Below the pieces are notes generated by a model. The model was not told the origin of the DNA, made no database searches, and saw nothing but the letters and a program-made list of their open reading frames with translations. DNA of 39,794 nucleotides, taken from positions 1-39,794 of IMG/VR virus record IMGVR_UViG_3300046509_000004; one strand, written 5' to 3'. The position numbers were made by a program, and so were the translations under genes. Each line of letters opens with the position of its first letter. The stretch's first letter is position 1. This document shows, one piece after another, positions 3,248-35,715 of the stretch. This stretch comes from a virus.

Positions 3248-3267
3248 AATCGCTCCTATATATTGTC

Positions 3268-9761: not shown

Positions 9762-9774
9762 AGGGAGAAACACA

Positions 9775-10104: not shown

Positions 10105-10111
10105 ATAGAAA

Positions 10112-10562: not shown

Positions 10563-10571
10563 GAGATTAAA

Positions 10572-10763: not shown

Positions 10764-10769
10764 TTCTAA

Positions 10770-11843
10770 ATGATCCTCGGCTTTCTCCTAGCCATTTGCT
10801 TCAACCCATATTCCTATTCCGCCGCTACTAATCCACGTTGGGCCTTGTTAGCTTTAGCTCTACCAATAGCAATCTGGTTTCGATCACCTAAGCATTGCAC
10901 CCCCTTACACCTTGCAGGCATAGTATTTCTGGCATGGGCCGTACTATCTCTCACCTGGACGCCAAACCTTTTAGACGGGTACAACTCGACAATTCAGTTG
11001 TTGATCGTAGCGGTAACATTCGTTCTTGGCGCGCGGCTCCCGACACTACGCCCAACGTTTCTTGGTTTGGCATTGGGGCTTACCCTAAGCAGTCTGATCC
11101 TGATAAGCCCGCTGAAGGAACTACATCCGATAATCGAGATAAGCCATGAAGGGCTACTTGGTAATCGTAATATGCTCGCGGAAGCAGCGGCACTAACGGC
11201 GATAGGCTGCATTAGCTACAGGCTATGGTGGACGATACCAGGACTACTACCGGCAATAATAATCCCAAACGCACGCGGAGCCTTGGTAGGATTAGGGGCC
11301 GGTTTGCTCGCCTGGATGTGGTCACGCTCAAGAACGTGGACTTTATTGCTTGCGTTATTGAGCATCTGTGCAGTTCTCATATCGACCATGCTAAGGCCGC
11401 TCACAGTCGATATGCGACTGGATATGTGGACCGACACGATTAAAGGGCTAACGCTATTCGGGCATGGCATTGGTTCTTTCAGGTATCTATTCCCCTTCCT
11501 CACCCATTCATTCGACGGCGCGTCCAACGTTGTCGATCACCCCCACAATGAACTACTGGAAATCTGGTTTGAACTCGGTGCAGTCGGACTATGCCTATAC
11601 GCGGCTATGGTCGCCATTGCCTTTAGAACTGCGGATATTGCTTCGCGTTCTGTCATGGCTGGGTTTATTGCTATCGGGTGCTTTGCGTTTCCCTCACATG
11701 AACCTGTTACGGCGTTTATTGGGGCGCTTGTGCTTGGTCATGCTGCTAGGAATGGGCTGCCTATACGCAGTTTGTTTGAACCTGTCCGACTGGCATTACG
11801 CACAAGGCTTCAATCTCACATTGCCTCCGAAGGACAGGGTTGA
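10770..11843 (+). CDS. Wzy / O-antigen ligase-like integral membrane protein, 357 aa
   Basis: About ten transmembrane helices with the Wzy_C signature in the large periplasmic loop: GHGIGSF, then VVDHPHNELLEIWFELGAVGL (about residues 231-275). Arg residues before it (NARGALVG, MRLDMWTD) are also typical. Members polymerise or transfer O-antigen units in the inner membrane. Phages carry such genes to alter host lipopolysaccharide, as D3 wzyβ does, blocking superinfection. The start has no clear ribosome site. The 3' end overlaps the next gene by about 146 bases. Confidence 0.85.
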   Translation: MILGFLLAICFNPYSYSAATNPRWALLALALPIAIWFRSPKHCTPLHLAGIVFLAWAVLSLTWTPNLLDGYNSTIQLLIVAVTFVLGARLPTLRPTFLGLALGLTLSSLILISPLKELHPIIEISHEGLLGNRNMLAEAAALTAIGCISYRLWWTIPGLLPAIIIPNARGALVGLGAGLLAWMWSRSRTWTLLLALLSICAVLISTMLRPLTVDMRLDMWTDTIKGLTLFGHGIGSFRYLFPFLTHSFDGASNVVDHPHNELLEIWFELGAVGLCLYAAMVAIAFRTADIASRSVMAGFIAIGCFAFPSHEPVTAFIGALVLGHAARNGLPIRSLFEPVRLALRTRLQSHIASEGQG

Positions 11844-12180
11844 GCAGTTCAGGCTAGCCAATCAGTTCTATCCATTGGACTGGCGCAACCGTTTAGCTTC
11901 AGCCGGTTTAATCTCAAATCTAGCTCTAGCCTCGAATGACCAAGGCTGGCTTAACGCAGCACAAATTGAAAACCGTAAAGCTTTAGTCACCGATGCTACG
12001 GATGCCACGTTAATACAGAAAGCTATCCTGATTGATCTGGCTTTTCATGACGATAAAGAGGCTGAAGTTTACTATCAGCAGCTAAAGCGGATAGATAGAA
12101 AATCCCCCATTCATGAATTGGTGGCGAACAGTCATCAACAGCAGGCCGAGCCGTCGCCTGCGATCCCTGACGGCAATTAG
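11698..12180 (+). CDS. Membrane-anchored TPR-like companion of the Wzy protein, about 160 aa
   Basis: One N-terminal transmembrane helix (CLVMLLGMGCLYAVCLNL), then a soluble helical region with repeated A..L.P / R..LA patterns (RLANQFYPLDWRNRLASAG, AAQIENRKAL) like the periplasmic TPR tails of Wzy/PglL-type enzymes. In many hosts this part is fused to the polymerase; here it is a separate overlapping frame. The frame is open from 11464, so the start is uncertain. No good ribosome site was found at 11698 or later ATGs. Confidence 0.6.
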   Translation: MNLLRRLLGRLCLVMLLGMGCLYAVCLNLSDWHYAQGFNLTLPPKDRVEQFRLANQFYPLDWRNRLASAGLISNLALASNDQGWLNAAQIENRKALVTDATDATLIQKAILIDLAFHDDKEAEVYYQQLKRIDRKSPIHELVANSHQQQAEPSPAIPDGN

Positions 12181-12190
12181 GAGCAACACG

Positions 12191-12799
12191 ATGAACAAAC
12201 GTATCGTAGTTGGCCTTGCCATTGCAGGGTCAATTGGATTGTCAACTCTAGCCTTCGCTGCCGGTCTATTTCCGGATTATCCCATTGTTGGTGGCGCTAC
12301 CTACTGTGCTGGTTCGTCCCAGTCAGCTACCGGTACGCTTATCGGTGCCATTACCGGTTGTCCCAACCAAGTCCCGGCTGGCCCGACTATTCTAACGGGC
12401 ACTGAGAAAATCCCGGCTGATACCGGTCTGGCCAGCGGTGCCAATCCGCAGACCGTCTTGATCCCGATGGCTGCCTTGAACGCGCTACCGATTCAGTTTG
12501 TATCGGTTAGCTCTGCCAACCCGGCAAATATCAGTGCGACCAATACCAGCGGTGGCGTATGTTACAACTCGACAGTCACAATCACTGCGGCAAATGTCAC
12601 GTTGCCAGCCAGCCCGATTGACGGCGAGCAATATGTAATTTGCTCCAACTACACGATTACCGCGCTGGCCGTGTCGGCTCCTGCCGGTACGACGCTATCG
12701 GTTACGACGCCCACAGTTCTGACGGCATCCACGACCGTGCCCCAGGGCTATACGTTTATCTACAATGCAGCCTCAACCAAGTGGTTCAAGCTCCGCTAG
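12191..12799 (+). CDS. Exported protein with Sec signal peptide, 202 aa
   Basis: MNKR, a hydrophobic core (residues 5-20), then an A-F-A cleavage site near 24: a textbook Sec signal peptide. The mature part is beta-rich, Thr/Ala/Ser-rich with four Cys, and resembles phage fibre or decoration domains (DGEQYVICSNYT, YNAASTKWFKLR at the end). GGAGC precedes the ATG. It belongs to a cluster of three exported proteins. A periplasmic or surface role is inferred; it may be a virion part despite the signal. Confidence 0.75.
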   Translation: MNKRIVVGLAIAGSIGLSTLAFAAGLFPDYPIVGGATYCAGSSQSATGTLIGAITGCPNQVPAGPTILTGTEKIPADTGLASGANPQTVLIPMAALNALPIQFVSVSSANPANISATNTSGGVCYNSTVTITAANVTLPASPIDGEQYVICSNYTITALAVSAPAGTTLSVTTPTVLTASTTVPQGYTFIYNAASTKWFKLR

Positions 12800-12807
12800 T
12801 CTAACTA

Positions 12808-12844
12808 GGGCCGTCACTTGCCCCCCGGTGACGGCCCATATTTT
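12808..12844 (+). terminator. Strong hairpin terminator
   Basis: GGGCCGTCAC (12808-12817) pairs perfectly with GTGACGGCCC (12828-12837), with a 10-base loop, followed by ATATTTTC. It lies 9 bases after the stop of the exported 202-aa gene. The U-tract is short and interrupted, so partial termination is likely. Confidence 0.75.
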
Positions 12845-12856
12845 CGAGGTTAGAAT

Positions 12857-13291
12857 GTGGCCGATCAATACAATTATATTTTCAAGTTTCCTAACCAAAC
12901 AGCCGCGTTTATTGATCCGGTTATAGGTCCATATTTAAATACACCAACCAGACTGTTAACCCCATTATGGGTTTATGATTTACGTCAAGGTGGGGTGAAT
13001 ACGCTCCTAGGTTATTGGGCAATAATTATCTCGGATGGACCGGACGCAACATTAGCAAATAACTCCCATCTGCAATTTGCCATTGATAGAGACGCATCAA
13101 CCGCATCGGCAAATGGCATTACCGGCTGCACGATTAACAACATACCGGATGAATTACTTGAAAATCTGCAAATTGTTATGGTGTATGGCGGCTATATAGA
13201 AAACGGTCTTATACCGCCGCTGCCTCCGAATGTAATTACTTATCTTGGTAATCCTGTTACGAATAATGCCGGAAAATACATAACCATCTGA
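12857..13291 (+). CDS. Hypothetical beta-rich protein, GTG start, 144 aa
   Basis: Not recognised. A soluble protein without a signal peptide, with aromatic and Pro-rich stretches (YNYIFKFPNQ, LLTPLWVYDLRQGG). Probably a structural or fibre-associated protein by position between exported proteins. GAGG lies 8 bases before GTG 12857; the ATG two bases earlier is out of frame. Confidence 0.7.
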   Translation: MADQYNYIFKFPNQTAAFIDPVIGPYLNTPTRLLTPLWVYDLRQGGVNTLLGYWAIIISDGPDATLANNSHLQFAIDRDASTASANGITGCTINNIPDELLENLQIVMVYGGYIENGLIPPLPPNVITYLGNPVTNNAGKYITI

Positions 13292-13298
13292 GGCATCC

Positions 13299-13676
13299 AT
13301 GAAATATCTGATAGTACTTTTTTTGTTTGCCTTCATGGCATCGGCGCAGGCACAACAGCCTGTCATTACCCAGCCTTATGCCGTGGTTAGCGTAAATGCG
13401 TCGGGTACGATTGCCTCAACTGGGGTTTTTCAATCAATCTGGACGGCTTTAACAACCAATCCAAACTCTCCGAAGCGGGCAAGCTGTACGGTGCAGAATA
13501 ATGGCACGCATACGATGTATGTGTTTTTTGGCCCAATAGCTTCGGCCACTACAGGAACCTCCGTTGCGTTGGCAGCCGGTCAAGCAGTTAATTGTTCTGT
13601 CGGGGGTACTGTGTTGCAAGACCAGGTTTCGATTACTGGCACCTCAACGGACGCATTCTTTGCGGCGCAGCAATGA
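13299..13676 (+). CDS. Exported protein with Sec signal peptide, 125 aa
   Basis: MKYL start, hydrophobic core, and a cleavage site A-Q-A at residue 19. The mature part is a small Ser/Thr/Ala-rich beta sandwich-like domain with two Cys (ASCTVQNN, VNCSVGG) suited to one disulfide. It resembles phage decoration or fibre-tip proteins in composition only. GAGGCATCC precedes the ATG. It ends in an ATGA overlap with the next fibre gene. Confidence 0.75.
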   Translation: MKYLIVLFLFAFMASAQAQQPVITQPYAVVSVNASGTIASTGVFQSIWTALTTNPNSPKRASCTVQNNGTHTMYVFFGPIASATTGTSVALAAGQAVNCSVGGTVLQDQVSITGTSTDAFFAAQQ

Positions 13677-14440
13677 AACACCCCATGCTTAAAAAACCTG
13701 AGTTGTTAAAACGCAATTTGCTGCTAGGCTTGGGGGCTGCTGCATTAGTAGCTCCAGCAACGATGGCGTTGGCGCAGACAATTCAGCCTACATCAGGGGG
13801 GGGCTCTAGCACGCTAACGGCCAATTCAACAGCAACAAGTGGGTTCACCGCAAATCAATATCTCTATTCCGATGGATCGAAGCTACAGGCTGGAACGTCT
13901 AACGGCACGGGATCATTGGTTGGTACTACTTCGCCAACACTCGTTACGCCGAATATCGGTGTTGCGACTGGTACGTCACTTGCTCTCTCTGGCGTAATCT
14001 CCACTGGCGTTGGAGGGTATAGCGCGCCAGCCGTGACTATTGGGGAGGCGGGGACTGGTATATTTTTAGCAGCCACTACTCGTCTTCAGTTTGTTCTGGG
14101 GTACAATATCGTAGGTGATTGGAACTTTAATTCTGGTGCACCTGTTTTTAAGCTTACTGGCAACGGGGTTGATGGCGGTGCTAATTCGTCGTTCATACTT
14201 GGTGACAATTTACACGGCACGTTTGAACTGCTGTTCTGGACCGATGCGACCAACAATATCGCAAAGCTTCAAACCTTCAATGGCGGCAGCGATTATGACC
14301 ATGTACTTAGTTTTCAGTCCTTGGGGGGGACCGTAAAACTTCCAGTGAAGGTGGATTTGTCTTCTTTGCCGACAGCAGACCCTCACGTTGTCGGTCACGC
14401 ATGGAGTAATCTAGGCATTGTTACAGTGAGTGCCGGATGA
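13673..14440 (+). CDS. Tail-fibre-like protein with signal peptide, 255 aa
   Basis: A basic start (KKPELLKR), hydrophobic core and A-L-A cleavage near residue 35 form a signal peptide. LKRNLLLG is a weak Tat-like motif with KR instead of RR. The mature part has phage-fibre features: Gly/Ser/Thr repeats, SPTLVTPNIG and VIGEAGTGIFL-like strands, and HVVGHAWSNLG near the end. Coupled by ATGA to both the exported 125-aa gene and the tailspike-like gene that follows. Confidence 0.75.
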   Translation: MKHPMLKKPELLKRNLLLGLGAAALVAPATMALAQTIQPTSGGGSSTLTANSTATSGFTANQYLYSDGSKLQAGTSNGTGSLVGTTSPTLVTPNIGVATGTSLALSGVISTGVGGYSAPAVTIGEAGTGIFLAATTRLQFVLGYNIVGDWNFNSGAPVFKLTGNGVDGGANSSFILGDNLHGTFELLFWTDATNNIAKLQTFNGGSDYDHVLSFQSLGGTVKLPVKVDLSSLPTADPHVVGHAWSNLGIVTVSAG

Positions 14441-15582
14441 CCTCTCCCGCTGGCATTTTTACAAACTCGGACGCTATTCATCCGACTGTTGCACTTTTGA
14501 AAAAAGATGCGACATTTCAGCTTAAGCGCGATTTTGGCGCTAAGGGTGACGGCTCTACAGATGACACAGCGGCGCTAAACGCTTTCATAGCCGCCGTTAA
14601 AGCTGTCCACGGAACCGGAATTTTAGACTTAGGCAGTTATGTCTTTAACGCGCCTCTTGATTTCAGCACCGCGTATGGGTGCAGTTTTATCGGCTGCGGC
14701 ATCGGCGGCAGTTTAGGTTTGAACAGTTACCCGAACACCCGACTTCTGTGGAAGGGAAATAATACGGACGCTTGGCTGAATTTAAGCCCTTGCAGAGATA
14801 CGCAGATTGCCAACTTGAACATAACGGCATTTTCGTCGTCATATCCGGGTGTAGCAGCAGTTGATATTGATGATCCTATTTCTAACAATGTTCAATTATC
14901 GAACCTTGGTATTGCTCCTGCTTCTGGCGGAACGCTAACTTCGGGAATTAGAATATCTAAAACGGCCATAACCGGATGCGATCTGCACAGCGTCGAGCAT
15001 TGCTATGTTGCAAATTGCACGAATGCGTTTGATCTAGCCGACACCTTCGGAGAATCCAAAGGCCATAGTCTTTATCGAAACACGTTTTCCTATTGCACCA
15101 ATGGGATTAATCAGGTGAACGGTTCCTTTACCGCAAGGGGAACAAATTTTTCTCACAACGCTATTGACGTTAATTTGCAGGGGATAGACGATTATATTCT
15201 TTTAACAGAAACTCAGAGTGAGGCAGCAGGCAGATTTCTTTCATTTACGACCGCAAGCACTTTTGCATGGGCCGTGACCATTAGTGGTGCGCGCCTCGCA
15301 GCAAATGGCTTAAACGCGGACGGAAAATATATTATTTTCAACGCATCCGGTCCTCTTAATCTTATCGGATGCGACTTTGCCAACGGTGGGTATTATGCGC
15401 CCTGGAGAATTTACGCTGATGATGGCTATGCCGGGTATGGTTCGGTAGGCGCGTATGGTTCTGTATTTCCCAACAACACAATTTTCTCCGGGTCAGCCAC
15501 GCAAAGCAGGACAACGATGCTCAACAATAATTACATCAATTCTTCGGGCCAGTGCGTTCAACTGCCAAACAGTGTGCCGTAA
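14437..15582 (+). CDS. Pectate-lyase-type beta-helix tailspike, 381 aa
   Basis: The motif FGAKGDGSTDDTAALNAFI at about residues 34-52 marks the pectate-lyase-3 beta-helix fold of phage tailspikes, which bind or cut surface polysaccharide. The remainder is a repetitive right-handed helix (Asn/Gly/Ser turns). Unlike the later tailspike it has no signal peptide and no recognisable head-binding domain; the fibre-like partner encoded just upstream may supply attachment. ATGA overlap with that gene. Confidence 0.8.
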   Translation: MTSPAGIFTNSDAIHPTVALLKKDATFQLKRDFGAKGDGSTDDTAALNAFIAAVKAVHGTGILDLGSYVFNAPLDFSTAYGCSFIGCGIGGSLGLNSYPNTRLLWKGNNTDAWLNLSPCRDTQIANLNITAFSSSYPGVAAVDIDDPISNNVQLSNLGIAPASGGTLTSGIRISKTAITGCDLHSVEHCYVANCTNAFDLADTFGESKGHSLYRNTFSYCTNGINQVNGSFTARGTNFSHNAIDVNLQGIDDYILLTETQSEAAGRFLSFTTASTFAWAVTISGARLAANGLNADGKYIIFNASGPLNLIGCDFANGGYYAPWRIYADDGYAGYGSVGAYGSVFPNNTIFSGSATQSRTTMLNNNYINSSGQCVQLPNSVP

Positions 15583-15594
15583 CGGAAGGTAATA

Positions 15595-15747
15595 ATGACC
15601 CAAACCCTCGAACAGCGTCTTAAAATGCTCATTGGCGAACTACAGTTCGTCAATGCAGAACTGAGCAGGCAGCTTGAAGAAGCCCAAGAGAAGATCAAGG
15701 AATTGACGTTGGTTGAGACACCAAAGTTTGCGGTAGTTGACAATTAG
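15595..15747 (+). CDS. Small coiled-coil protein, 50 aa
   Basis: Found in the gap before the terminase gene. Heptad-rich sequence (LEQRLKMLIGELQF, LSRQLEEAQEKIKEL) then a short hydrophobic tail. GGAAGG precedes the ATG. A trimerising or chaperone-like role for the adjacent spike is possible; not recognised. Confidence 0.65.
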   Translation: MTQTLEQRLKMLIGELQFVNAELSRQLEEAQEKIKELTLVETPKFAVVDN

Positions 15748-15754
15748 CAATTGA

Positions 15755-17056
15755 ATGGTTTGGTTTCCTGAGAAAGCAATCCCGTTATTCCAGCCTGCGC
15801 CTTACAAGGTCATGTACGGCGGGCGCGGCGGTTCTAAATCATGGGATATGGCTAGGGCTATCTTATGCCTGGGTGCCCATAAAAAGCTGTTTGTGGTCTG
15901 TGGCCGTGAAATCCAACGCTCAATCAAGGATTCGGTTCATAAGCTTCTAAGCGAGCAAGTTTCTGATTTAGGGCTTGACGATCATTACGAAGTCCAGGAA
16001 CAGAAAATAATAGGCAAGTTGAACGGCACTGAAATAGTCTTTGTAGGTGTCAGAAATAACATCACCTCGATCAAATCAATGGAAGGCATTGATATATTCT
16101 GGCTAACGGAAGCGGTGCATGTTTCAAACCATACATGGGATACGTTGCTTCCTACTGTACGACGCGACCCCCCGTTTGGGCCGTTTGGGCAAGGGTCTGA
16201 GGTGTGGATTGACTTTAATCCTGATCTTGCCAGCGATGATAGTTATAAGCGTTGGGTGCTTGACCCTCCGACTGGAACGATGGTTTCTGAGGTCAATTGG
16301 AGAGATAACCCCTGGTTTCCTGAAATCCTCCGCAAGCAATTGGAGGACATGAAATCCAAGGACTATGATAACTATCTGACGGTTTGGGAAGGCAAGACCA
16401 GACGCAGTTTGGATGGAGCGATATATGCCAAGGAATTATATGCCGCCATTACTGAAGGCCGCATTAGCCCATCCATCCGATACGACAAATCTAAAGGCGT
16501 TACCGTCAGCTTTGATCTTGGACGATCTGATATGTGCGCGCTATGGTTCATGCAGCAAATTGGCATGGAACATCACGCAATTGATTTCTACGGAAATACT
16601 GGATTTGGAATAGACCACTACATCGAAGAAATACAGAAACGAAAACACCTCATAAAGCAAATCATCCTGCCCCATGACGCGCAAAACCACCACCAAGCAG
16701 CGTCAAAGACCATCGAAAGACAAGTGCGGGATATCTACCCAGGCCAAATCGTCAAGATCGCACCCAAAGTCTCAATCGTTAATGGCATCAATGCAGTTCG
16801 TCAGTTATTCCCTAGGCTTTACTTCTCGGAAGGTAATACCGCCGATGGAGTTCTTGGGCTTCAGCATTACCAATACGGGGTCAATCCAGAAACTCACGTT
16901 AGAACTAAAGAACCCTTGCACAATTGGGCCTCGAATCCAGCCGACTCGCTTAGGTACTACGCCGTAGAAATCAAGGAAGGCAATAAGCCTCCGAAGCAGG
17001 AAGAGTATCAAGATGAATATTCGACCGGCAACGAGGCAACGGCGTGGATGCAATAA
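15755..17056 (+). CDS. terL: Terminase large subunit, 433 aa
   Basis: The packaging motor and headful nuclease. The ATP-binding P-loop GGRGGSKS is at residues 22-29. The Walker B/catalytic segment IDIFWLTEA is at 112-120 with Glu119. The RNase-H-like nuclease has acidic residues at D254 (FDLGRSD), D308 (PHDA) and D397 (NPADSLRY). Length is normal for the family. The ATG follows the coiled-coil gene by 7 bases. The portal gene follows directly. Confidence 0.95.
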   Translation: MVWFPEKAIPLFQPAPYKVMYGGRGGSKSWDMARAILCLGAHKKLFVVCGREIQRSIKDSVHKLLSEQVSDLGLDDHYEVQEQKIIGKLNGTEIVFVGVRNNITSIKSMEGIDIFWLTEAVHVSNHTWDTLLPTVRRDPPFGPFGQGSEVWIDFNPDLASDDSYKRWVLDPPTGTMVSEVNWRDNPWFPEILRKQLEDMKSKDYDNYLTVWEGKTRRSLDGAIYAKELYAAITEGRISPSIRYDKSKGVTVSFDLGRSDMCALWFMQQIGMEHHAIDFYGNTGFGIDHYIEEIQKRKHLIKQIILPHDAQNHHQAASKTIERQVRDIYPGQIVKIAPKVSIVNGINAVRQLFPRLYFSEGNTADGVLGLQHYQYGVNPETHVRTKEPLHNWASNPADSLRYYAVEIKEGNKPPKQEEYQDEYSTGNEATAWMQ

Positions 17057-23329: not shown

Positions 23330-23752
23330 ATGGCATATAAATCTACGCTTCCTAGTTCAATTCAGACTTTGCTTCCCGGTCCAAGACTGGCCGATGTTTC
23401 TTCATTGTCTGGTTCTGTTGCCAATGGCATGGGAAACAACGTTAATGGCGCATTGACCGCTTCCACTACTCAGACGCAAGCCGGTGGGACGTTGCTTACT
23501 TACGGCATTAATTCCGTTTTGAATGCCAATGGTTCAGATGCGGTTACTATGCCAAAGGCGGCTTCCGGCACTATACTTATTCTGGTCAATCATACTGGAC
23601 AAACCATCCAGTTGTTTCCTGCTGTAGGAGACACCATCAATGCTGCCGCTATCAATGCCGCTGTGACGGTGGCAACGGCTACCACTTCCATTTATATTTG
23701 TTCGGCGGGTTCCGCTCAGTGGTGGGGTGGCGCAATCACCAATGAAGCCTAA
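23330..23752 (+). CDS. Beta-rich virion-associated protein, 140 aa
   Basis: Not firmly recognised. Ala/Thr/Asn-rich beta protein with GTILILVNHTGQTIQLFPAVGDTINAA and a Trp-rich C-terminus, similar in style to the exported 202-aa protein (YVICSNYTI then YNAASTKWFKL) but without a signal peptide. Probably a head decoration or fibre-type protein. ATG overlap with the gp10-like gene. Confidence 0.7.
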   Translation: MAYKSTLPSSIQTLLPGPRLADVSSLSGSVANGMGNNVNGALTASTTQTQAGGTLLTYGINSVLNANGSDAVTMPKAASGTILILVNHTGQTIQLFPAVGDTINAAAINAAVTVATATTSIYICSAGSAQWWGGAITNEA

Positions 23753-25275
23753 TGCCGAGAATACCGCTAACGAGCGGCGCATACTCCGCTCAATCTATCA
23801 TTGCCAATGCACAACGGTGTGTAAATCTTTATCCTGAAAGCAATCCGCAGGAAACCAATCCGCCTGTTCCGGTTACTCATTATCCTAGACCCGGATTAAC
23901 TCCGCTAAGTTCACCACCTGTAGCGGGATTTGGGAGAGGGCTTTACACCGCTACAAATGGCAAGCTGTTTGCGGTCGTAAACCAGAATATCTATCACATC
24001 CACCAGGAGGACGGTTGGGAGTTTCATCTAGTTGGCACGATGACCAGCCCAATAACCACTCCGGTTTGTGCTGCCGATAATGGAGTTGATGCACTATTCC
24101 TTGATGGCACCTTGGATGGTTACACAGTTGTTATTGATACGGCTATGGGTCATGCCTTTAATCAGATTGGCGATCCAAACTTTCTGGGAGGTACCAGACC
24201 GGACTTCATAGATAGCTTTATCATTACCAATCAACCCAATACAAAAAACTGGTATTCTACATTAGCGGGGCAACTGCTTTTTAATGGGCTTTATGTCGGT
24301 GTAAAGACGGCTTGGCCGGATAATATCCAGGTTGTTATTGCGGTTGAAAGAGCGGTTTGGGTCTTAGGAAATTACAAAAGCGAGCTATGGTATAACGCTG
24401 GGGCTGTTCCGTTTCCGTTCAACATTCAGCCTGGATTGATTATTGAGCATGGTTGCGCGGCTCCTTACTCGGCTGCCAAACAGGACGTTAATTGCTACTG
24501 GTTGAGTCAATCTCCTGAAGGTGCCCGCATGGTTATGAAGGGCACGCAGAACCTAGCAGTAAGAATTTCAACCCATGCCATTGAAGCCGAATTTGTAAAA
24601 TACGCCAGAGTGGATGATGCGATAGGTTCGGTGTTTCAGATTAATGGCCATGCGTTCTATTGCATAGACTTTCCAACTGCGGACAAGACCTGGGTTTATG
24701 ACGAAGCCACGAAACAATGGCACCAGTGGACGCATATCGACGTAAACGGAATTGAGCATCGCTGCCTAACTCCCTTCAAGGCTTATGCCTATGGAACGAA
24801 TGTAGGATTAGATTGGCAGACCGGTAATTTATACAAACTGGATGAAGGCAACTTCACCGATAACGGATTACCGATAAGTTACGTTCGTTCATTTCCGCAC
24901 GTTATGTCCAGCGAGAGCCAACGCCTTACAGTCTGGAAATTTGTGGCAGATGTTGAGGTAGGAACGGCATCAGGCACGGTTACTTATCCTCTAGATGGTA
25001 GTCCTTGGTCTTTGGGGTTTTCTCCCGGTTTTGGACCTTTGGTAATTACCGAACCGCCATTGATTTCACTTCGGATAAGCCGGGATCGTGGAGCTAGTTG
25101 GGGTAATGCAGTCATGCAGCCAATGGGCGCGCAAGGCTTGTATTTGACAAAACCGACTTGGTACAGATTGGGTTATATGTGGGATGCTGTGTTTGAATTA
25201 TCGTGGTCCACTCCGATGAAAACCGCATTGAACGATGCTTTTATCGAGGTTGAAAAACACGATGGCGACCTATGA
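23752..25275 (+). CDS. P22 gp10-like tail hub / head-stabilisation protein, 507 aa
   Basis: The N-terminus (PLTSGAYSAQSIIANAQRCVNLYPE) is the marker of the Phage_stabilise family, the hub to which tailspikes attach after packaging. The rest is a beta-propeller-like repeat (Trp/Tyr-rich, GRDGDTK-like turns). Length is near P22 gp10 (472). It overlaps the previous and following genes by 1-4 bases. Confidence 0.9.
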   Translation: MPRIPLTSGAYSAQSIIANAQRCVNLYPESNPQETNPPVPVTHYPRPGLTPLSSPPVAGFGRGLYTATNGKLFAVVNQNIYHIHQEDGWEFHLVGTMTSPITTPVCAADNGVDALFLDGTLDGYTVVIDTAMGHAFNQIGDPNFLGGTRPDFIDSFIITNQPNTKNWYSTLAGQLLFNGLYVGVKTAWPDNIQVVIAVERAVWVLGNYKSELWYNAGAVPFPFNIQPGLIIEHGCAAPYSAAKQDVNCYWLSQSPEGARMVMKGTQNLAVRISTHAIEAEFVKYARVDDAIGSVFQINGHAFYCIDFPTADKTWVYDEATKQWHQWTHIDVNGIEHRCLTPFKAYAYGTNVGLDWQTGNLYKLDEGNFTDNGLPISYVRSFPHVMSSESQRLTVWKFVADVEVGTASGTVTYPLDGSPWSLGFSPGFGPLVITEPPLISLRISRDRGASWGNAVMQPMGAQGLYLTKPTWYRLGYMWDAVFELSWSTPMKTALNDAFIEVEKHDGDL

Positions 25276-25664
25276 TTTCAGTTGTTGCGACAAACTTTCC
25301 ACCGCAGGCCACTCCAATAGTCGATCAAAGTGGCAAGATGACAACGCCGGGAATGGCGTTCTTTCGGGCACTTTATGATCGTACAGGTGGAGGAAACGGT
25401 TTAGTCAATCAAGTTTTTACCGGTCCTGGTGGCGATCTAGCGGCGGATTGGAATTATCTAACTAGCTCTGGAAATTCCACGTTGCCTGCTCTTACTGGTG
25501 GGCAGATGGTCATGGTGCAGAATAGCAGTGGATCGTTTGCAAATATAAATGCCCCTGCTGGAGCCTCTATAGATGGCGTTCCGCTTTATACTTTAGCTGA
25601 TACCAAAATGCAGATATTCTGGTTCATATCCTCATCCATTATCGTATCGACGCAGCTAGGATGA
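25272..25664 (+). CDS. Tail-region hypothetical protein, 130 aa
   Basis: Residues 10-45 (PPQATPIVDQSGKMTTPGMAFFRAL) match a frequent phage protein encoded right after the gp10-like gene; such proteins are minor tail proteins. The C-half is beta-rich (LPALTGGQMVMVQNSSGS). Function unknown. ATGA overlaps link it to gp10 and to the SET-domain gene. Confidence 0.75.
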   Translation: MISVVATNFPPQATPIVDQSGKMTTPGMAFFRALYDRTGGGNGLVNQVFTGPGGDLAADWNYLTSSGNSTLPALTGGQMVMVQNSSGSFANINAPAGASIDGVPLYTLADTKMQIFWFISSSIIVSTQLG

Positions 25665-26437
25665 ACGATTTTAATCAAGCTATTGCGGAGTATGGTTTTA
25701 CTCCTGATATTGTAAAGTCTATCAGTGAAAATACTTCTGATCTTGTTGTAATGCCAAGTGGACTTTACAAATTTATTGTAGGAAATTCTAAAATTGAAGG
25801 TCATGGAATTTTATGCGTTGCGGATATTAGGGAAGGGGAGATTATTGGACCGGCTAGAATAAATGGAAAACGAACTGATTTAGGGAGATTTACAAACCAT
25901 GATAAATTTCCGAATGCAAAAATGGATATGGTAAATTCAGATTTGATAAATTTGGTATCTATTGGGAATATTTCTGAGGGAGAAGAAATAACAATAGATT
26001 ACCGGCAGGCACTCTCTTTACAGCGGCAGCCAGTAAAAAGGGAACATATATTTGAGATAGAAAAGGAAATGTTTAAGTTTCCTCAAATAGAGATACCTGT
26101 CAGACATTATTTTACACCGGGTATTTATGCGAGAGAAATTACTGTCCCGGCTGATGCGTTGATTACCGGAGTTATTCACAAATACCCTCAGATAAACATT
26201 CTTTCCAAGGGAACGATCAGGGTTTCCATTGACGAAGAAATCCGCGAAATCTCCGCACCTTATACAGTTATATCAGCGGCAGGCATCAAGCGAATTGCTT
26301 ATGCGGTTACGGAATGTGTTTGGACTACCATCGTTCACACATTCAAGACCGATGTTGCCAAGATTGAAAAAGAGTTCTTTGCCTATACCGAACAAGAATA
26401 TCAAGATTTCGTAAGAGAGAAACAATGTCAGGCATAG
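25661..26437 (+). CDS. SET-domain / cupin-like fusion protein, 258 aa
   Basis: Residues 36-115 carry the SET lysine-methyltransferase fingerprints: SKIEGHGILCVADIREGEII, RFTNHDKFPNA (the RxxNHxxxPN motif) and EGEEITIDY with the catalytic-type Tyr114. Residues 143-232 match a phage cupin-like domain (IPVRHYFTPGIYAREITVPA, INILSKGTIRVSI, CVWTTIVHT). SET enzymes methylate Lys using S-adenosylmethionine. The 5' half of the gene is clearly more AT-rich than its neighbours, suggesting separate acquisition of the SET part. The target could be a virion or host protein. ATGA overlap upstream. Confidence 0.8.
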   Translation: MNDFNQAIAEYGFTPDIVKSISENTSDLVVMPSGLYKFIVGNSKIEGHGILCVADIREGEIIGPARINGKRTDLGRFTNHDKFPNAKMDMVNSDLINLVSIGNISEGEEITIDYRQALSLQRQPVKREHIFEIEKEMFKFPQIEIPVRHYFTPGIYAREITVPADALITGVIHKYPQINILSKGTIRVSIDEEIREISAPYTVISAAGIKRIAYAVTECVWTTIVHTFKTDVAKIEKEFFAYTEQEYQDFVREKQCQA

Positions 26438-27980: not shown

Positions 27981-29114
27981 ATGCCCGTCGATACCTCAGT
28001 TTACCAAAACCAGCCAAATCCATTAGGACAGCTAACCAACGTATTTGGGATAATGAATGCTGCCCAACAGAACAAGATTTTGCAGCAAGAGACTGGTTTG
28101 CTTCAGCAGAGACAGACAATCAATCAATCTCAGTTTCAGCAGCAGCAATCGGACGATCTAAGAACCGTCATTGGAAATCTTTATAATACCGGAGCAAAAC
28201 CAGCCGATGTAACGGCGGCGGTTCTGTCTCGTGCAAGGCAAGGTTCTTATAATGATACTGTAACTAGTAACGTAATTTCTGACATAAATAATGCTGTTAG
28301 TACCGGAACTTGGGATAAATTTGGAAAACAGCAAAGAGCGCAGGCAACGTCTGCGGCTGGTCTTATCTCGCAAACACCAACATATCCCCAAGGTGGCGGA
28401 ACGCAGCAATATCAGCCAACTACATCTATTCCACGGACAGGTGTAGCAGCGGCCAATCCTCCTGGGTATGAAGCTGTGGCTACCGGTCCTGCCGGTGCTG
28501 AAGGAATTTCTAATATGGCATCGGTTGCTAATGATGCACCGAACCAAAAAGCCATGCTGGATAATCTCAATGCGCTAGGCAACGAAGCTGTTTCCGGCCC
28601 ATCGTCTGATTTTGAAAAGCGAGCGAATGCCTTAGCTCTTAGATTGTTTGGCAAGGGTGTTACGCTCACTCCGCGACAATTGGCTAGTTCAGAAGAATAT
28701 GGAAAGATTTCTGAGCAATTGGCAGGACAGCAAGCAACCTCGGCCCACGCTACAAATGCGTTTCTCACTAATGCCTACAATACCAATCCTAGCCTTTACC
28801 TTTCAAAGATAGGCAGGCAGGGCATTACTCATATGCTTCAGGGCAATGTCGATAGCATAGTGGCTAAAAACAATGCTTGGAACTCTTACGCCAATGGTGA
28901 GGTTGATGGAAATAAACATTCACCAGCAGAATTTGCGACTTGGAATAGACAGTTCAATGCTGGATTTAATCCAAGAGTATTTCAGTATGCGCGCATGACA
29001 CCGGAAGAACGGTCAAACTTTCGTTCCACAATGACGCAGCCTCAACAGCAGCAATTATATAAAAATCTAAATCAGTATCAGGCTAATGGATGGCTTGATA
29101 TGTCGGGGCAATAA
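27981..29114 (+). CDS. Ejection / internal virion protein, gp20-like by position, 377 aa
   Basis: Gln/Asn/Ala-rich and mostly helical, with long heptad regions (QQNKILQQETGLLQQRQTINQ) and a flexible Gln/Pro/Thr middle. Lies between the gp7-like and lysozyme-domain ejection genes, as gp20 does in P22. Sequence itself was not recognised. Confidence 0.65.
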   Translation: MPVDTSVYQNQPNPLGQLTNVFGIMNAAQQNKILQQETGLLQQRQTINQSQFQQQQSDDLRTVIGNLYNTGAKPADVTAAVLSRARQGSYNDTVTSNVISDINNAVSTGTWDKFGKQQRAQATSAAGLISQTPTYPQGGGTQQYQPTTSIPRTGVAAANPPGYEAVATGPAGAEGISNMASVANDAPNQKAMLDNLNALGNEAVSGPSSDFEKRANALALRLFGKGVTLTPRQLASSEEYGKISEQLAGQQATSAHATNAFLTNAYNTNPSLYLSKIGRQGITHMLQGNVDSIVAKNNAWNSYANGEVDGNKHSPAEFATWNRQFNAGFNPRVFQYARMTPEERSNFRSTMTQPQQQQLYKNLNQYQANGWLDMSGQ

Positions 29115-29115
29115 C

Positions 29116-31407
29116 GTGGACCCTGATACGATTTGGAATGCCATATTTGGGCAGGAATCCAATTCAGGACAAAACAATAGAACTAGCGTAACGGGAGCTA
29201 TCGGGCCTGGACAAATCCAGCCGGGTACATGGCGGCAGTATGCGCGACCCGGTGAAAGTATTTACAACAACAACGACAATATTGCAGTTAGTAAGCGAAT
29301 AGTTAACGATCTAGTAGGTCGATATGGTCCTGATCCCGCAAGAGTTGCCACGGCTTATTTTTCTGGTCCTGGCAATGTATCGGCATCAAATAGTCCAACT
29401 CCTTTCGTTCAAAATAAAACTGATCCAACCGGTAAAAGCACGGCATCCTATGTTTCCGATATTTCGAGACGCATAAGCAATATGCCAGTCGATAAGAACT
29501 TCGATCCAAATACTGCTTTTGGACAGTGGGAAACGCCTACTCAAGCTGCACCGGTTCAAACTTTTGATCCTGCTGCATTCAGCAAGTGGGAAACGCCTAC
29601 TCAAGCCACTCCTGCGGCTCAACCGGTATCATCCTCTCAGAGTGGCAGCACTATTCCAGTTCCGCGTGAGGCCATGACGCCAGCGCAAAAGTCAGAACAG
29701 GATCAAGGTTATGCGAATGCACAAAACATGCCGGGATGGTGGCAACAAAATTATCATCCACTGCAATCCATAACCGATGCTTTCCAATCCGGCAGATCGC
29801 AAGCAGGAGGAGGGTTACAGGATATAGCCAAAGGAAACGTAGCGACCGGAACCGGCAATCTGGTCATGGGTGGTCTTAATACTGCTTTAGCGCCAGTCCT
29901 AGGGCCTTATAACGAAACCGCACGGGCCGCTGGCATGGCTATCGGCAACCCACAGGCCGCAGATGTAGCCTCATTGGTTCTGCCCACTAGGGGGGTCGGT
30001 GGTGCGGTTACTGCTGCCCTTCCTGAAACCAGGGCCGCGCAAGGCATTATAAATCTTGTCGGGAAAGACAATATTCCGGCGGTTGTGCAACGATTGCAGG
30101 CCAATCCAAACCTTTCATTGATGGACGTTTCGGAACCGGTAAGAACCGTTGCGGCAGGCATAGCCAATAGCCCTGAAACGCCAGCAGCACAAAATGTCAT
30201 GCGTTCGGCTTATGATGCTCGCACGGGCGCAAGACAAAGTATGGTGCAAGACGCGGTTGATAAGACGCTCGGCGCACCTATGAACGTGAAAGACGTAACC
30301 GACCAGCTTTCACAGAATTTAAAGGACGTAGGAACTAAGCTGATCCAACCTGCCCTTGCCGGGGCGCAGCCCGTAGGCGTTAAACCAATTCTTGAAAGGC
30401 TTGACGCGGTTATCAATTCACCAACTATTACTGCCGCTACAAAGACAGAATTGCAACGATATAGGCAACAAATAGCGGGTAATGGTGATTTTGGTTTTGT
30501 TGATCCGAACCAACTTCATAATATTCAATGGCCACTAAGAGCGTTCGCTGAAAATTTAGCAAAGAGTACCAGCGGCGTTGAAAAGAATATGTCTGGACCG
30601 CTGATGAATGTTAGAAACGACTTAGTTGATGCTATTGATAATGCATCCGGTGGAAAATACAAACCGGCTCTTTCTCAATACCGGGACGCATCTGCTGTTC
30701 CTGATGCCTTTGATAAAGGTTATAAGGGCGTATTCAAAACAGGCGGTCTAGAGGATTTCCCGGAGTATTTTGATTCGTGGATAAAGGGCGACCCTGCAAA
30801 CAACATTGCCCCGGCAAGTCCACAGGAAATAGCTGCGGCTAGGGTAGGGGCTATTACCAGAGTTAGACAAACCATAAGCGGAATGCAGGGAGGTTCTACT
30901 CGCGGCGAGAGAATATTGCTTCCAGAGTTTGCACAGCAAAAACTATCCTCGCTGTTTAATCCTACGCAAGTTTCTCAATTGTCTGGATTGCTGGAAGATG
31001 CGCGGGGAATGTCAGATACTAACTCGCTGTTATATAAAAATTCAAAGACTGCACAGGTAACGGCGGGCCAGAACTATTTTCAGCCAAGACAGGTAGGAAC
31101 TCCATCAGGCGCAGCTACAGGTGTTGGAGCCGGTCTATTCGGTGCAATGGCTATGGCCGGTGGCGCAATTGAGCCTGGATTGGTCGGACTAGGGGCTTCT
31201 GCTTTGAAGGCAGGACACATGGGAATGCAATATGTTGGAAAGCTTGCAGATAAATCGACGGCCACAAACTTTGCAAAACTTGCTTCAGCCTCCGATGGGC
31301 CATCCCGTAATCAGCTTCTGAATATTTTGAGAGCGGCCAGTTCTGCGGGCCAAGGCAATAAATTGGGAAATCTTAATTCTTCTATGCTCCGCTTGGCGGC
31401 TCCTTAG
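29116..31407 (+). CDS. gp16-like ejection protein with N-terminal lytic transglycosylase domain, about 763 aa
   Basis: Residues 2-110 form an SLT-type cell-wall hydrolase: TIWNAIFGQESNSG with catalytic Glu14, then GAIGPGQIQPGTWRQYA and RVATAYFSGPGNV. It would open a local hole in peptidoglycan for DNA entry. A disordered linker with two WETPTQA repeats follows (22-bp DNA repeats at 29525 and 29585), then long helices, ending in an Ala/Gly-rich hydrophobic stretch (about 660-700). Start is probably GTG 29116, just after the previous stop; ATG 29086 is possible. Confidence 0.85.
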   Translation: MDPDTIWNAIFGQESNSGQNNRTSVTGAIGPGQIQPGTWRQYARPGESIYNNNDNIAVSKRIVNDLVGRYGPDPARVATAYFSGPGNVSASNSPTPFVQNKTDPTGKSTASYVSDISRRISNMPVDKNFDPNTAFGQWETPTQAAPVQTFDPAAFSKWETPTQATPAAQPVSSSQSGSTIPVPREAMTPAQKSEQDQGYANAQNMPGWWQQNYHPLQSITDAFQSGRSQAGGGLQDIAKGNVATGTGNLVMGGLNTALAPVLGPYNETARAAGMAIGNPQAADVASLVLPTRGVGGAVTAALPETRAAQGIINLVGKDNIPAVVQRLQANPNLSLMDVSEPVRTVAAGIANSPETPAAQNVMRSAYDARTGARQSMVQDAVDKTLGAPMNVKDVTDQLSQNLKDVGTKLIQPALAGAQPVGVKPILERLDAVINSPTITAATKTELQRYRQQIAGNGDFGFVDPNQLHNIQWPLRAFAENLAKSTSGVEKNMSGPLMNVRNDLVDAIDNASGGKYKPALSQYRDASAVPDAFDKGYKGVFKTGGLEDFPEYFDSWIKGDPANNIAPASPQEIAAARVGAITRVRQTISGMQGGSTRGERILLPEFAQQKLSSLFNPTQVSQLSGLLEDARGMSDTNSLLYKNSKTAQVTAGQNYFQPRQVGTPSGAATGVGAGLFGAMAMAGGAIEPGLVGLGASALKAGHMGMQYVGKLADKSTATNFAKLASASDGPSRNQLLNILRAASSAGQGNKLGNLNSSMLRLAAP
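29525..29606 (+). repeat. 22-bp direct repeats inside the ejection gene
   Basis: The same 22 bases occur at 29525-29546 and 29585-29606, in frame and 60 bases apart, encoding the repeated KWETPTQA / QWETPTQA peptide in the linker after the transglycosylase domain. Likely an internal duplication. Confidence 0.8.
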
Positions 31408-31485: not shown

Positions 31486-32937
31486 ATGAAGCATAGATTG
31501 TGCTGCCTTATAATCTTTCTATTCGCTACGTTTCCGGTTCATGCAGCAACCACGCTGCTGCCGCCTGGAATGCAATGCTTTACCGACGCGACCGGAGCCG
31601 TTATTTCCGGTTCTGTTAATATGTTTTATCCGGCAACTACTTCTCCTAAGCCAACATGGCTGGATGCAAATCAACTCGCGCTAAACAGCCAACCAATCCA
31701 ATTAGACGGAAATGGTTGTGCCACTATATACGGTATAGGGTCCTATCGCCAGCAGCTATATGATGGTCCGGTAGTCGGTGGAAACACCAGCGGCAATTTG
31801 CTTTTTGATAAGATAACCACAGATACCAGCGCCTATAATGCGGTGTTTTGGGCTGGTCTTTCCGGTGGTACGGCAAATGTCATTACGGTTGTCGATCCAG
31901 GCTTTAATGCGACCGATGGTACCGTTATAAACTTCACGGCTCTAGCGACTAACACATCCTCAACCACTATTAACCCTTCGGGTTATGGCGTTATTTCTGT
32001 CCTAAAGGATACTACTTCCGGCCCTGTATCTTTGACAGGTGGCGAGATTATCCAGAGTAATATTATTTCGGTTGTCTATCGTTCTTCGGATAATGCATTT
32101 CACCTGCTCAATCCGCCTATTCAATCTGCCAGCGGCGCGGTTTCCCCCCTTTGCGGCGCTTCTGGATTACAGATTACCAATGGATCAACGCCTAGTTCAA
32201 TTATCTCTGTGACGGCCAATGATGCGGTAATGACAAGTGCTGGAGGTTTGGTTCAAAACCGTGCAAATATTTCTCTAACGAACATAAATATTACTACCGG
32301 AACATCTGCTTCGACAGTCAACGGTATGGATGGTGAAGCACCAGGAACGAGTTCTTGGCTTTATATTTTTCTCATAGACAACGGTTCGGCATCAGCCGGT
32401 CTTGTTTCTCTAGCTTCAGGAAATGGTCTAAATCCGTCTCTGCCGAGTGGTTATATTTATAAATGTCTTATGGGTGCTATGCTGGTTGACGGCAGTGGCA
32501 ATCTTATGAGGACACTGCAATCTGGCATTCATGCCCAATATGTCATTACGACTTCAACTAATACCGCTGTTGTTCCAAATATCGTGAACGGGACGCAAGC
32601 TACATATTCTACAACTTCCCCGACTCTTGCGTCAGTAAGCGTGAGTGGGTTTGTTCCTCCGATAGCCACGGAAATAAATTTGCTCGTTACAAATGCGTGG
32701 AAAGGCAACACCGCAACTGGCGTTCTTGTCGCTCCTAATGTCAGTTATGGCGGCACCAATAACGGCCCGCTTGGGAGTGCAGGACAATCGTGGCCTTATT
32801 CGGCGTTTGCAACGGTTGGAATTGTTGCGTCTTTCAACATGGTATTAGAGGGAACAACAATTGCCTGGGCCAGTACCGCCGCTGGCGGGGCCATTTCTTG
32901 CTTAGGATGGACCGTTGGAGGCGTCAATGCGAATTAA
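31486..32937 (+). CDS. Tail fibre with head-binding-like domain and Sec signal peptide, 483 aa
   Basis: Residues 1-20 are a signal peptide (MKHR, hydrophobic core, cleavage V-H-A). Next comes a normal phage fibre N-domain: LPPGMQCFTDATGAVISGSV, MFYPATTSPKPTWLDANQ, like the head-binding domains of P22-family spikes. The remainder is Ser/Thr/Gly-rich beta structure with several Cys. The N-domain should bind the tail hub in the cytoplasm, so the signal peptide is unexpected. The next gene's ribosome site (GGAGG) lies inside its end; overlap 11 bases. Confidence 0.8.
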   Translation: MKHRLCCLIIFLFATFPVHAATTLLPPGMQCFTDATGAVISGSVNMFYPATTSPKPTWLDANQLALNSQPIQLDGNGCATIYGIGSYRQQLYDGPVVGGNTSGNLLFDKITTDTSAYNAVFWAGLSGGTANVITVVDPGFNATDGTVINFTALATNTSSTTINPSGYGVISVLKDTTSGPVSLTGGEIIQSNIISVVYRSSDNAFHLLNPPIQSASGAVSPLCGASGLQITNGSTPSSIISVTANDAVMTSAGGLVQNRANISLTNINITTGTSASTVNGMDGEAPGTSSWLYIFLIDNGSASAGLVSLASGNGLNPSLPSGYIYKCLMGAMLVDGSGNLMRTLQSGIHAQYVITTSTNTAVVPNIVNGTQATYSTTSPTLASVSVSGFVPPIATEINLLVTNAWKGNTATGVLVAPNVSYGGTNNGPLGSAGQSWPYSAFATVGIVASFNMVLEGTTIAWASTAAGGAISCLGWTVGGVNAN

Positions 32938-34924
32938 ATATATTGCAATCATTCTCTTATTGATGACGGCTCCTGCCTTTGCTCAGACAGGCACCTCCCA
33001 AACTCCTGCCCAATTAAATAATGAAATAAATTCAAAATTTACCGATCAACTGATTGGAGCTATTACACCATATACCTTACGCCAATTAACTTTGGATATG
33101 GTGGCTTCTACAGGACAAATATTTAATATCACAGGGTTTGGTGCGGTTTGCGATGGGACGACTGACGATTATACGGCAATTCAAAATGCTATAAACAAGG
33201 CTCAATCTACATCGGTAACTTCCGGGGGATTACCTTTTGGTACTCCGGTAATTCAGTTTCCAGGGGCTATTTGCCGGATCGCATCGGCTTTGAACATTAC
33301 CGGCCCTCTTGTGTTTGATGGTGGTGGCAGCGGCAATGCAGTGTTGCTTGTCGATAATGCAACTGGCGGATTAGTATTTAGTCCTAGTAGTCAATACAAT
33401 CAGAGTGTTGTTAAAAACCTAACTATTAAAGCTGGACGTACTCATGCAGGTACAGCATTCAAATACAATGGCGTTGTAACTAGCAGTGCTAATAATCCTC
33501 AATTGCTTTTAGAAAATGTCCTGATTCGAGGGGATGGTACAAACTATTTTGATCGGGGTATTTACTTCGATAACGCTTGGGATGCAGTGTTTAATCATGT
33601 GACGCTTCTTGCCGATGGTGCTAGTTCGGCAACCTATTGGTCGAATGCTATCGAGATTGGAACGAATGTAATTGATGCGAAATTCAGCCAGGTATCTATC
33701 AACGGTGCGGTTCATGCTTGGAATATCACCGGAGCCCACGTCGAGGGCATCCGCATTGAACACTCGACTGCTATTGCTGTTAATTTCGGAGTGGTAGGAA
33801 CAACTTCGGTCGGCTCTCCTCATTTTACTGTTTTGGACTCCCATATCTCTGCCGCTACTACCAATGTTTCCCTGTCGGGTAGTTTTGCCCAAGTAATCAT
33901 CGGGCGTAACGACTTTTTTCTCCAATCCCAGGCCGGGTTTACAACACCAAATGGTGCCAAGGCCATAGATTGTCTTGCCTGCGGCGCAGTTACCATATCC
34001 GGTAATATTCTTGCTATGAATGATGTTGCGGCTACAGGAACAGTTGGCATTAAATATGACACGGGAACGTCTGACGTAAATGATGGCGGAAATACTCTGG
34101 CCGGATTTGCCACTGGTGTTTCTGTCGTCAGCGGAGTTACGGGAACGTATGCCGCAAGCACCTTCGATACCGTCACAACGCCAATTTCAAATTCTGCTCC
34201 AAGTACGTTCTTTTCATCAAATCAAACTATTTCTTGGGGTGGTGCTGGTGGAACTTCGTTTTTGAAGTGGATAGATACCGTCGCCAATAAAACTACAAAT
34301 TGGAATTACAATGCAGGAGTAGTATCATGGATTCGTAATGATGGAACAACGACAGGAGCCTCTCTGGATGTAGAGCATAGTGTCCTAAGTCTTGGTGGTT
34401 CTGGTGTCCTTGGAAGTCTATCATTAGGCAATGCAACCTCTGGAACAATCACTTTACAGCCGGTCGGAGGTGCTCTTGGAAATGTTACCCCTTCCTTGCC
34501 AGCCAATACCGGTATTATAGCCGAGACGAATTATGCACAATCATGGACAGGGTTACAATCGTTTGCTTCTATTGGTCTTGTTACGCTTGGCTGGTCATCC
34601 ACAGCGCCAACCATTGCATCAGGATTTTGTAGTACTGGCTCTCCTGTAACTGCACTTAGCGCGTCTAATGGAACGGCGGCTTTTGATATTCTTATCGGGG
34701 CGGCTACTTGCGGTTCTACTGGAACGCTTACAATGCCAACGGCAACTACAGGGTGGGTTTGTTCCGCTACGGACGTAACGACGCCAGCCAGCCATAACGT
34801 AGTGCAGACCGGAACGAATGGATCAACTACGGCTGTGGTTTTAACTGACTATTCCCGCACCGCTGGAACGGCACAGAACTTCCTTCCTGCCGATCATGTC
34901 CATGTAATGTGTACGGCTTACTAA
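32927..34924 (+). CDS. Pectate-lyase-type tailspike with Sec signal peptide, 665 aa
   Basis: Residues 1-20 are a signal peptide (MRIKY, hydrophobic core, A-F-A cleavage). Residues 27-65 form a known phage tail N-motif (LNNEINSKFTDQLIGAITPYTLRQL). A beta-helix follows, marked by FGAVCDGTTDDYTAIQNAI at about 73-91, which would bind or cleave surface polysaccharide. The C-terminal 120 residues resemble fibre tip domains and end HVHVMCTAY. ATG 32927 has GGAGG 5 bases before. TAATG overlap with the lysozyme gene. Confidence 0.85.
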   Translation: MRIKYIAIILLLMTAPAFAQTGTSQTPAQLNNEINSKFTDQLIGAITPYTLRQLTLDMVASTGQIFNITGFGAVCDGTTDDYTAIQNAINKAQSTSVTSGGLPFGTPVIQFPGAICRIASALNITGPLVFDGGGSGNAVLLVDNATGGLVFSPSSQYNQSVVKNLTIKAGRTHAGTAFKYNGVVTSSANNPQLLLENVLIRGDGTNYFDRGIYFDNAWDAVFNHVTLLADGASSATYWSNAIEIGTNVIDAKFSQVSINGAVHAWNITGAHVEGIRIEHSTAIAVNFGVVGTTSVGSPHFTVLDSHISAATTNVSLSGSFAQVIIGRNDFFLQSQAGFTTPNGAKAIDCLACGAVTISGNILAMNDVAATGTVGIKYDTGTSDVNDGGNTLAGFATGVSVVSGVTGTYAASTFDTVTTPISNSAPSTFFSSNQTISWGGAGGTSFLKWIDTVANKTTNWNYNAGVVSWIRNDGTTTGASLDVEHSVLSLGGSGVLGSLSLGNATSGTITLQPVGGALGNVTPSLPANTGIIAETNYAQSWTGLQSFASIGLVTLGWSSTAPTIASGFCSTGSPVTALSASNGTAAFDILIGAATCGSTGTLTMPTATTGWVCSATDVTTPASHNVVQTGTNGSTTAVVLTDYSRTAGTAQNFLPADHVHVMCTAY

Positions 34925-35391
34925 TGCAAACATCACCACAAGGACGCCAGCTAATTGAGGATTTCGAGGGTCTTTATCTAAGTGCCTATCATGATTCAGT
35001 AGGTGTTTTAACTATTGGATATGGCCATACAAACATTGGAAACATACCGCCTTTCATTACTCCTGGAATGCAGATAAGCGAAGTCGATGCAGATCAAGCT
35101 TTATCCGATGACCTTGCTAGGTTTGAGGATCGGGTAACAAAAATAATAGGTGATTTGTCTCAATGTCAGTTTGACGCCCTTGTGTCTTTTGACTTTAATA
35201 CTGGTGATTTACTTTCGTCGTCTATTCCAGATAAGATTAAAAACGGTAATATCGACGCTGCTATGAATACATTACTTCAATACAACCATGCTGGGGGTAA
35301 AGTCTTGGCAGGTCTTACCCGACGCAGGCAGGCCGAGAAATTGTTGTTTTTAGGTAATGTTGACGAAGCTCTAGCATTGGCAAAAGGGTGA
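34924..35391 (+). CDS. Phage lysozyme / endolysin, GH24 muramidase, 155 aa
   Basis: Cuts the glycan chains of peptidoglycan for host lysis. The T4-lysozyme-type catalytic set is intact: Glu15, Asp24 and Thr30 in EGLYLSAYHDSVGVLTIGYGH. LTRRRQAEKLLF at the end is typical of the family. No signal peptide, so it depends on a holin. The start is the TAATG overlap at 34924. Confidence 0.93.
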   Translation: MQTSPQGRQLIEDFEGLYLSAYHDSVGVLTIGYGHTNIGNIPPFITPGMQISEVDADQALSDDLARFEDRVTKIIGDLSQCQFDALVSFDFNTGDLLSSSIPDKIKNGNIDAAMNTLLQYNHAGGKVLAGLTRRRQAEKLLFLGNVDEALALAKG

Positions 35392-35394
35392 ACC

Positions 35395-35715
35395 ATGAAC
35401 CAAGACCAATTTCTAAGTTTAGTGCGGACCCTATTGCAAGTCGTAGGGACAGCCGTTGTTACGCATGGCACGCTAGGAATTAATGGAGCAATTTGGGAAC
35501 AGATTTCCGGCGCGATCATTATTATCGCCCCTACTATCTGGTCTATGTATGAGCATACCGATAAGGCGAATCTTGCCAAGGTTACGGCGATGCCGGACGT
35601 TACTCAGGTAACGGTTAAGTCAACTGCTACCGATGGCATTGCCGATGCGGCAAACGATCCAACTCAGACCAAGGTGGTGATGCAATCTCCCCTTGGGGCT
35701 TCTAAGATAATTTAA
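35395..35715 (+). CDS. Holin-like protein, 106 aa
   Basis: One or two membrane helices (LLQVVGTAVVTHGTL and WEQISGAIIIIAPTIWSM) followed by a polar tail with KANLAKVTAMPDV, a pattern seen in Pam3-gp28-type putative holins of alphaproteobacterial phages. It would release the lysozyme. It lies immediately after the lysozyme gene. Confidence 0.75.
   Translation: MNQDQFLSLVRTLLQVVGTAVVTHGTLGINGAIWEQISGAIIIIAPTIWSMYEHTDKANLAKVTAMPDVTQVTVKSTATDGIADAANDPTQTKVVMQSPLGASKII

Follow-up and report, generated by a model that had tools for sequence, protein, structure and literature searches.

Predicted Sec leaders on the tail fibre and tailspike of a P22-type phage: candidate receptor-binding proteins that may join the tail at lysis

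Introduction

In the textbook scheme, tailed phages are assembled in the cytoplasm. The tailspike of P22 folds in this compartment, its native form contains no disulfides, and the spikes are added to the particle last and spontaneously; a surplus of free tailspike is well known from P22-like phages. The adsorption protein pIII of filamentous phages is instead made with a Sec leader and contains disulfides, and the assembly of these phages takes place in the membrane and needs no lysis.

The window analysed here is a stretch of viral DNA of 39,794 nucleotides (IMG/VR record IMGVR_UViG_3300046509_000004). An earlier note on this DNA had proposed that its tail fibre and its tailspike each carry a Sec signal peptide in front of a normal virion-attachment domain. 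Like the filamentous coat proteins, the two products would be adsorption proteins with a Sec leader and disulfides, but the window phage is tailed and has an endolysin. Its coat, portal and terminase are of the P22 type (PF11651, E = 1.4e-27; PF16510, 1e-146; PF04466, 2e-35), and a P22-type scaffold gene is also present. The presumed docking partner of the fibre is a tail hub of the P22 gp10 type (head closure Hc3; 23752–25275, + strand; phrog_578, E = 9e-71), homologues of which are common to loci with exported and loci with non-exported fibres.

The probably exported fibre and its docking domain

The fibre gene (31486–32937, + strand) encodes 483 residues, and its C-terminal part matches phrog_17105. 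The protein starts with MKHRLCCLIIFLFATFPVHA, followed by ATTLLPPG, and the signal peptide (31486–31545, + strand) is predicted to be cleaved after VHA. The mature start coincides exactly with that of a known tail-docking domain, the tailspike head-binding domain (31546–31830, + strand). The domain edge offers no usable start codon, as the next ATG (31570) is already within the domain. The fibre and spike genes overlap and are located between a transglycosylase/ejection-type protein (29086–31407, + strand; SLT domain PF01464, with homologues in the same place) and the endolysin, directly 3' of the spike (34924–35391, + strand; PF00959, E = 2e-34).

Both the fibre and the spike leader have a positive n-region, a hydrophobic core and an AxA site, which predicts processing by signal peptidase I, and the leaders described in the earlier note are thus borne out by the signal rule. 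Export as lipoproteins or through the Tat pathway was rejected: neither protein has a lipobox (the first mature residues are Ala and Gln) or a twin arginine. In the related locus L004, the position matching that of the window fibre leader is also taken by a hydrophobic leader, but a different one.

The docking-domain profile matches the head-binding domain of the cyanophage Pam1 tailspike (PDB 7eeq, E = 4.7e-10) and the Pan3 tail spike (9vyg/9vyh, 5e-8 to 3e-7). In the modelled structure of the mature fibre, confidence is high over roughly residues 11–190 and poor beyond; Foldseek matched this model to 9b45, 9vyg, 2vnl and 7eeq, its neighbours being the Pa193 tail fibre, the Pan3 and Pam1 tail proteins and the head-binding domain of the P22 tailspike (2vnl, probability 0.99 with a weak TM). 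Profile and fold thus both identify an N-terminal head-binding domain, and this domain is the same as that of Pam1 and Pan3 tailspikes seen within solved short-tail complexes. The Pam1 spike gene, unlike that of the window fibre, starts at the domain and has no signal peptide. Likewise, the fibres or spikes of the Pseudomonas phage PAE2, the Rhodoferax phage P26218 and the Xanthomonas phage PBR31 have a homologous N-domain and no leader; the PBR31 gene adjoins a putative internal virion protein gene. P22 gp9 resembles the fibre in fold and belongs to a phage whose tail hub, portal and coat are of the same type, but the window fibre differs from it by its Sec leader and its predicted paired cysteines. 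A search of genome contigs with the fibre gave nothing.

The probably exported spike and the GxITP family

The spike gene (32927–34924, + strand) encodes a β-helix tailspike of 665 residues, which matches the phrog_8280 tail spikes (2e-5) and, below the cutoff, PF12708 (E = 8e-4). Its N-terminus is MRIKYIAIILLLMTAPAFA, followed by QTGTSQ; cleavage is predicted after AFA (signal peptide 32927–32983, + strand), and the homologous leader in L183 is MRIKYFALIVALLLGVVPACA. A GGAGG ribosome-binding site (32917–32921, + strand) lies within the end of the fibre gene, five bases upstream of the spike ATG at 32927.

The signal peptide is followed by a short N-terminal domain with a GxITPxxxRQ motif (32984–33109, + strand), and in related loci the HMM matches to this domain sit directly after the signal peptide. 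Neither N-domain HMM matches the window spike, so that no head-binding domain of the Pam1 type is found there and its N-terminus is of the GxITP type. The earlier description of normal attachment domains on both proteins therefore holds for the fibre and not for the spike. A second exported family, with a leader and GxITPxxxR as in the window spike, comes after the exported fibre in many loci, and 11 of its 12 unique complete members have an even number of cysteines (one of these has none). Several members (in L008, L112, L121 and L087) have a cysteine pair within the GxITP motif. The searches of phages and viral contigs with the spike protein gave nothing, nor did the GxITP alignment (A8), which was too diverse. 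In L163, a gene without a leader that starts with MTAYSKTQINNSLNQ (2858–3283) follows the exported fibre; it is a weakly similar neighbour and might indicate a mixed system.

Leaders across the homologues

The docking domain was followed in 127 curated proteins, from scans of viral contigs and genomes. In 34 of them a predicted signal peptide reaches up to the domain boundary, whereas the other 93 have a Met start at this boundary and no leader. The exported form of L163, from a further genome search, is outside these tallies. The combination of leader and N-domain sought by the earlier note thus recurs, in dozens of phages, but only in part of the family. The domain is also present in 13 GenBank phage records (isolates and assembled genomes), all of which start at or near it. 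The same note had regarded homologues with downstream starts and better ribosome sites as a possible refutation; homologues that start at the domain exist, but nearly all leader-bearing genes lack a start codon at the boundary, and the few codons found are GTGs (L012, L074, L160) or lie inside the leader. Most leader-bearing homologues have an AxA-type site at the domain start.

In all six homologous pairs of signal peptides, pN is lower than pS (pooled pN/pS 0.53, compared to 0.29 for the domain), and the leaders therefore look translated and constrained. On a tree of 86 columns, which is too weak for counting origins, the leader label requires 10 changes, against 30 for shuffled labels. One docking domain may have acquired or shed the leader several times, with cysteine pairs arising alongside; alternatively, the leader may have arisen only once.

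In eight exported forms (L010, L087, L108, L112, L114, L116, L121 and L130), and only in exported ones, the docking domain is split by an insertion right behind its first strand. All eight forms have a similar glycine-rich sequence around ATxxxTVSGGxVTxVxxxNxGxxY. In L114, the exported fibre is followed downstream by a run of several more leader-bearing proteins (9482–16198).

Cysteine signature

The earlier note had mentioned many cysteines in both proteins, and indeed the mature fibre has five and the mature spike eight. Two of those of the fibre form a candidate pair in the docking domain: Cys31 (mature residue 11; codon 31576–31578) and Cys78 (mature residue 58; codon 31717–31719, both + strand) are in short β-strands of the confident model region. 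The corresponding motif, QCF ... NGCA, is present in the window fibre and its nearest kin. A docking-domain pair occurs in 14 of the 34 exported homologues and in none of the 93 others (Fisher 9e-10), and it is absent from about 59% of the exported forms; the three aligned leaderless proteins (PAE2, ctfPj964 and P26218) do not have it.

An even number of cysteines is found in 27/29 exported fibres, compared to 35/85 non-exported ones; the window fibre, with its odd number, is one of the two exceptions. The difference persists after clustering at 90% (25/27 and 31/79, Fisher 9e-7) and at 50% (16/17 and 21/50, Fisher 1.5e-4), with the proviso, for pair and parity alike, that the sequences are related and that a tree-based pair test had too few supported contrasts to decide. 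Cysteine density does not differ between exported and non-exported forms (Mann–Whitney p = 0.13), so that the signal is carried by parity and position, not by number. Exported proteins are known to prefer even numbers of cysteines (PMC7678975). The pairing in the exported relatives appears typical of oxidised proteins and suggests that the fibres are made and bonded outside the cytoplasm; pair and parity support real export independently of signal prediction. Disulfide-dependent folding, one of the meanings considered in the earlier note, is well supported at this comparative level by the boundary signal peptide, the linked cysteine pair and the even parity.

Other probably exported proteins of the window

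The signal rule (charge, hydrophobic core and AxA site) was applied to 50 ORFs of the window. At the listed starts it flags only the fibre, the spike and 13299–13676; it does not flag the portal, coat, scaffold, hub or ejection proteins. Other in-frame starts add 12113–12799 (from 12191), 13592–14440 and a weak match, 35395–35715. Three more probable exported proteins, which the earlier note did not include, are thus found at 12191–14440, all on the + strand: MNKRIVVGLAIAGSIGLSTLAFA before AGLFPDYP (12191–12799; an L196 homologue also has a leader), a small protein with MKYLIVLFLFAFMASAQA before QQPVIT (13299–13676), and a fibre-like protein with LLLGLGAAALVAPATMALA before QTIQPT (13673–14440). 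A search of phages with the 12191 protein gave nothing. They are followed by a β-helix spike without a signal peptide (14437–15582, + strand; PF12708, E = 1.1e-9, and PHROG tail spike matches), likewise missed in the earlier note and an internal contrast to the exported spike. The whole block (12191–15582) lies upstream of the terminase, and related blocks occur in the genomes G002 and G004, which have leaderless spike-like proteins upstream of the terminase.

Two further genes of the window may be mentioned. The product of 10770–11843 is a membrane protein similar to Wzy_C O-antigen ligases/polymerases (PF04932, E = 6e-11) and could be a phage gene for surface alteration. The product of 25661–26437 has a SET domain (PF00856, E = 5e-7), and its C-terminal half matches PHROGs named short tail fiber/tail fiber adhesin.

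A probable role in the virion and its alternatives

The exported fibre is the sole docking-domain protein in the window, in G007 and G008, and in the available parts of G002 and G004; other records also contain no second protein with this domain. Among the exported fibres compared, the first 95 residues are 47–78% identical, while most pairs are 18–32% identical after residue 190 (the exceptions are L004 and the window, 55%, and L014 and L007, 43%). This pattern resembles a fixed dock with exchanged tips. The order ejection protein, exported fibre, exported spike recurs in G007, G008, L183 and L112, and the fibre slot between ejection gene and endolysin recurs in related loci. We infer from these sequence data that fibre and spike are probably exported receptor-binding proteins of the virion, which would join the tails at or after lysis. 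Export is very likely and well supported at the level of the family; attachment at lysis is probable, with less assurance. Among the meanings that the earlier note had listed, attachment during or after lysis fits best, since no protein of the genome other than the exported fibre was found to have the head-binding domain.

Fibre and spike might instead act apart from the virion, as receptor-masking decoys or free depolymerases that leave the cell at lysis or stay in the envelope, with the leaderless spike (14437–15582) as the real receptor binder. The leaders would route the proteins out of the cytoplasm, away from the assembling heads, leaderless spikes are present in the window, G002 and G004, and the Wzy_C-like gene hints at surface alteration. 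Yet the only head-binding domain in the five genomes is on the exported fibre, as its most conserved part, the fibre gene occupies the usual slot, and in G007 every candidate spotted in the ORF lists has a leader. Nothing was found that favours either decoys or a free depolymerase specifically, and we regard such a role as unlikely. Because of the leaderless spikes, the idea of the exported fibre as sole receptor binder was dropped: the exported proteins may share this task with others, and a mixed strategy or a non-virion role is conceivable. A combined role, in which part of the exported protein enters virions and the excess works in the lysate as an unbound enzyme or a blocker, is compatible with all the data and recalls the excess tailspike of P22-like phages, but a free pool with its own function has no direct support and this reading seems quite improbable.

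It is very doubtful that the leaders stay uncleaved, as membrane-active or packing segments of a virion protein. Some leaders are long and cleavage is a prediction here, but the AxA-type sites at the domain start of most homologues and a cysteine parity that fits an oxidising compartment speak for processing. Wrong annotation, with true starts downstream and no leader made, is hardly credible and was rejected: it would accord with the weak ribosome site of the window fibre and with the GenBank homologues, but not with the scarcity of boundary start codons, the well-spaced GGAGG of the spike or the purifying selection on the leaders. Chance was also rejected as the source of the hydrophobic N-terminus, as many homologues have a leader too, and theirs likewise stops at the edge of the domain.

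For the preferred reading, attachment of exported proteins at lysis, the following sequence of events can be proposed. Sec would carry the fibre and spike chains to the periplasm, where signal peptidase would remove the leaders, the host disulfide machinery would oxidise the chains, and trimers would form. Meanwhile, the cytoplasm would accumulate finished heads with their tail hubs. Lysis by holin and endolysin would bring the two pools together, and the fibres would then snap onto the hub. Such late joining needs no new principle, since P22 tailspikes are added last and spontaneously. The likely benefit would be fibres that disulfides harden for the extracellular phase. For both proteins, cleavage, disulfide formation and presence in the virion are predictions from sequence.

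Significance for tailed-phage assembly

In the literature available as open-licence texts, we found no earlier report of exported tail fibres. The parts are known singly; what appears to be new, relative to that literature, is that a tailspike head-binding domain is preceded by a Sec leader and that a cysteine signature accompanies the two. The chances are slightly better than even that a group of tailed phages completes its particles outside the cytoplasm, with receptor-binding proteins that pass through the Sec and disulfide systems and meet the head–tail particle at lysis.

If the exported fibres are virion parts, a tailed phage has the Sec and disulfide systems of its host among its assembly factors. 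The addition of fibres then becomes a lysis-time step, the particle being finished only when the cell opens, and the leader or the cysteine pair becomes a readable genome marker of this step. If this is true, such receptor-binding proteins could misfold when they are expressed in a reducing cytoplasm.
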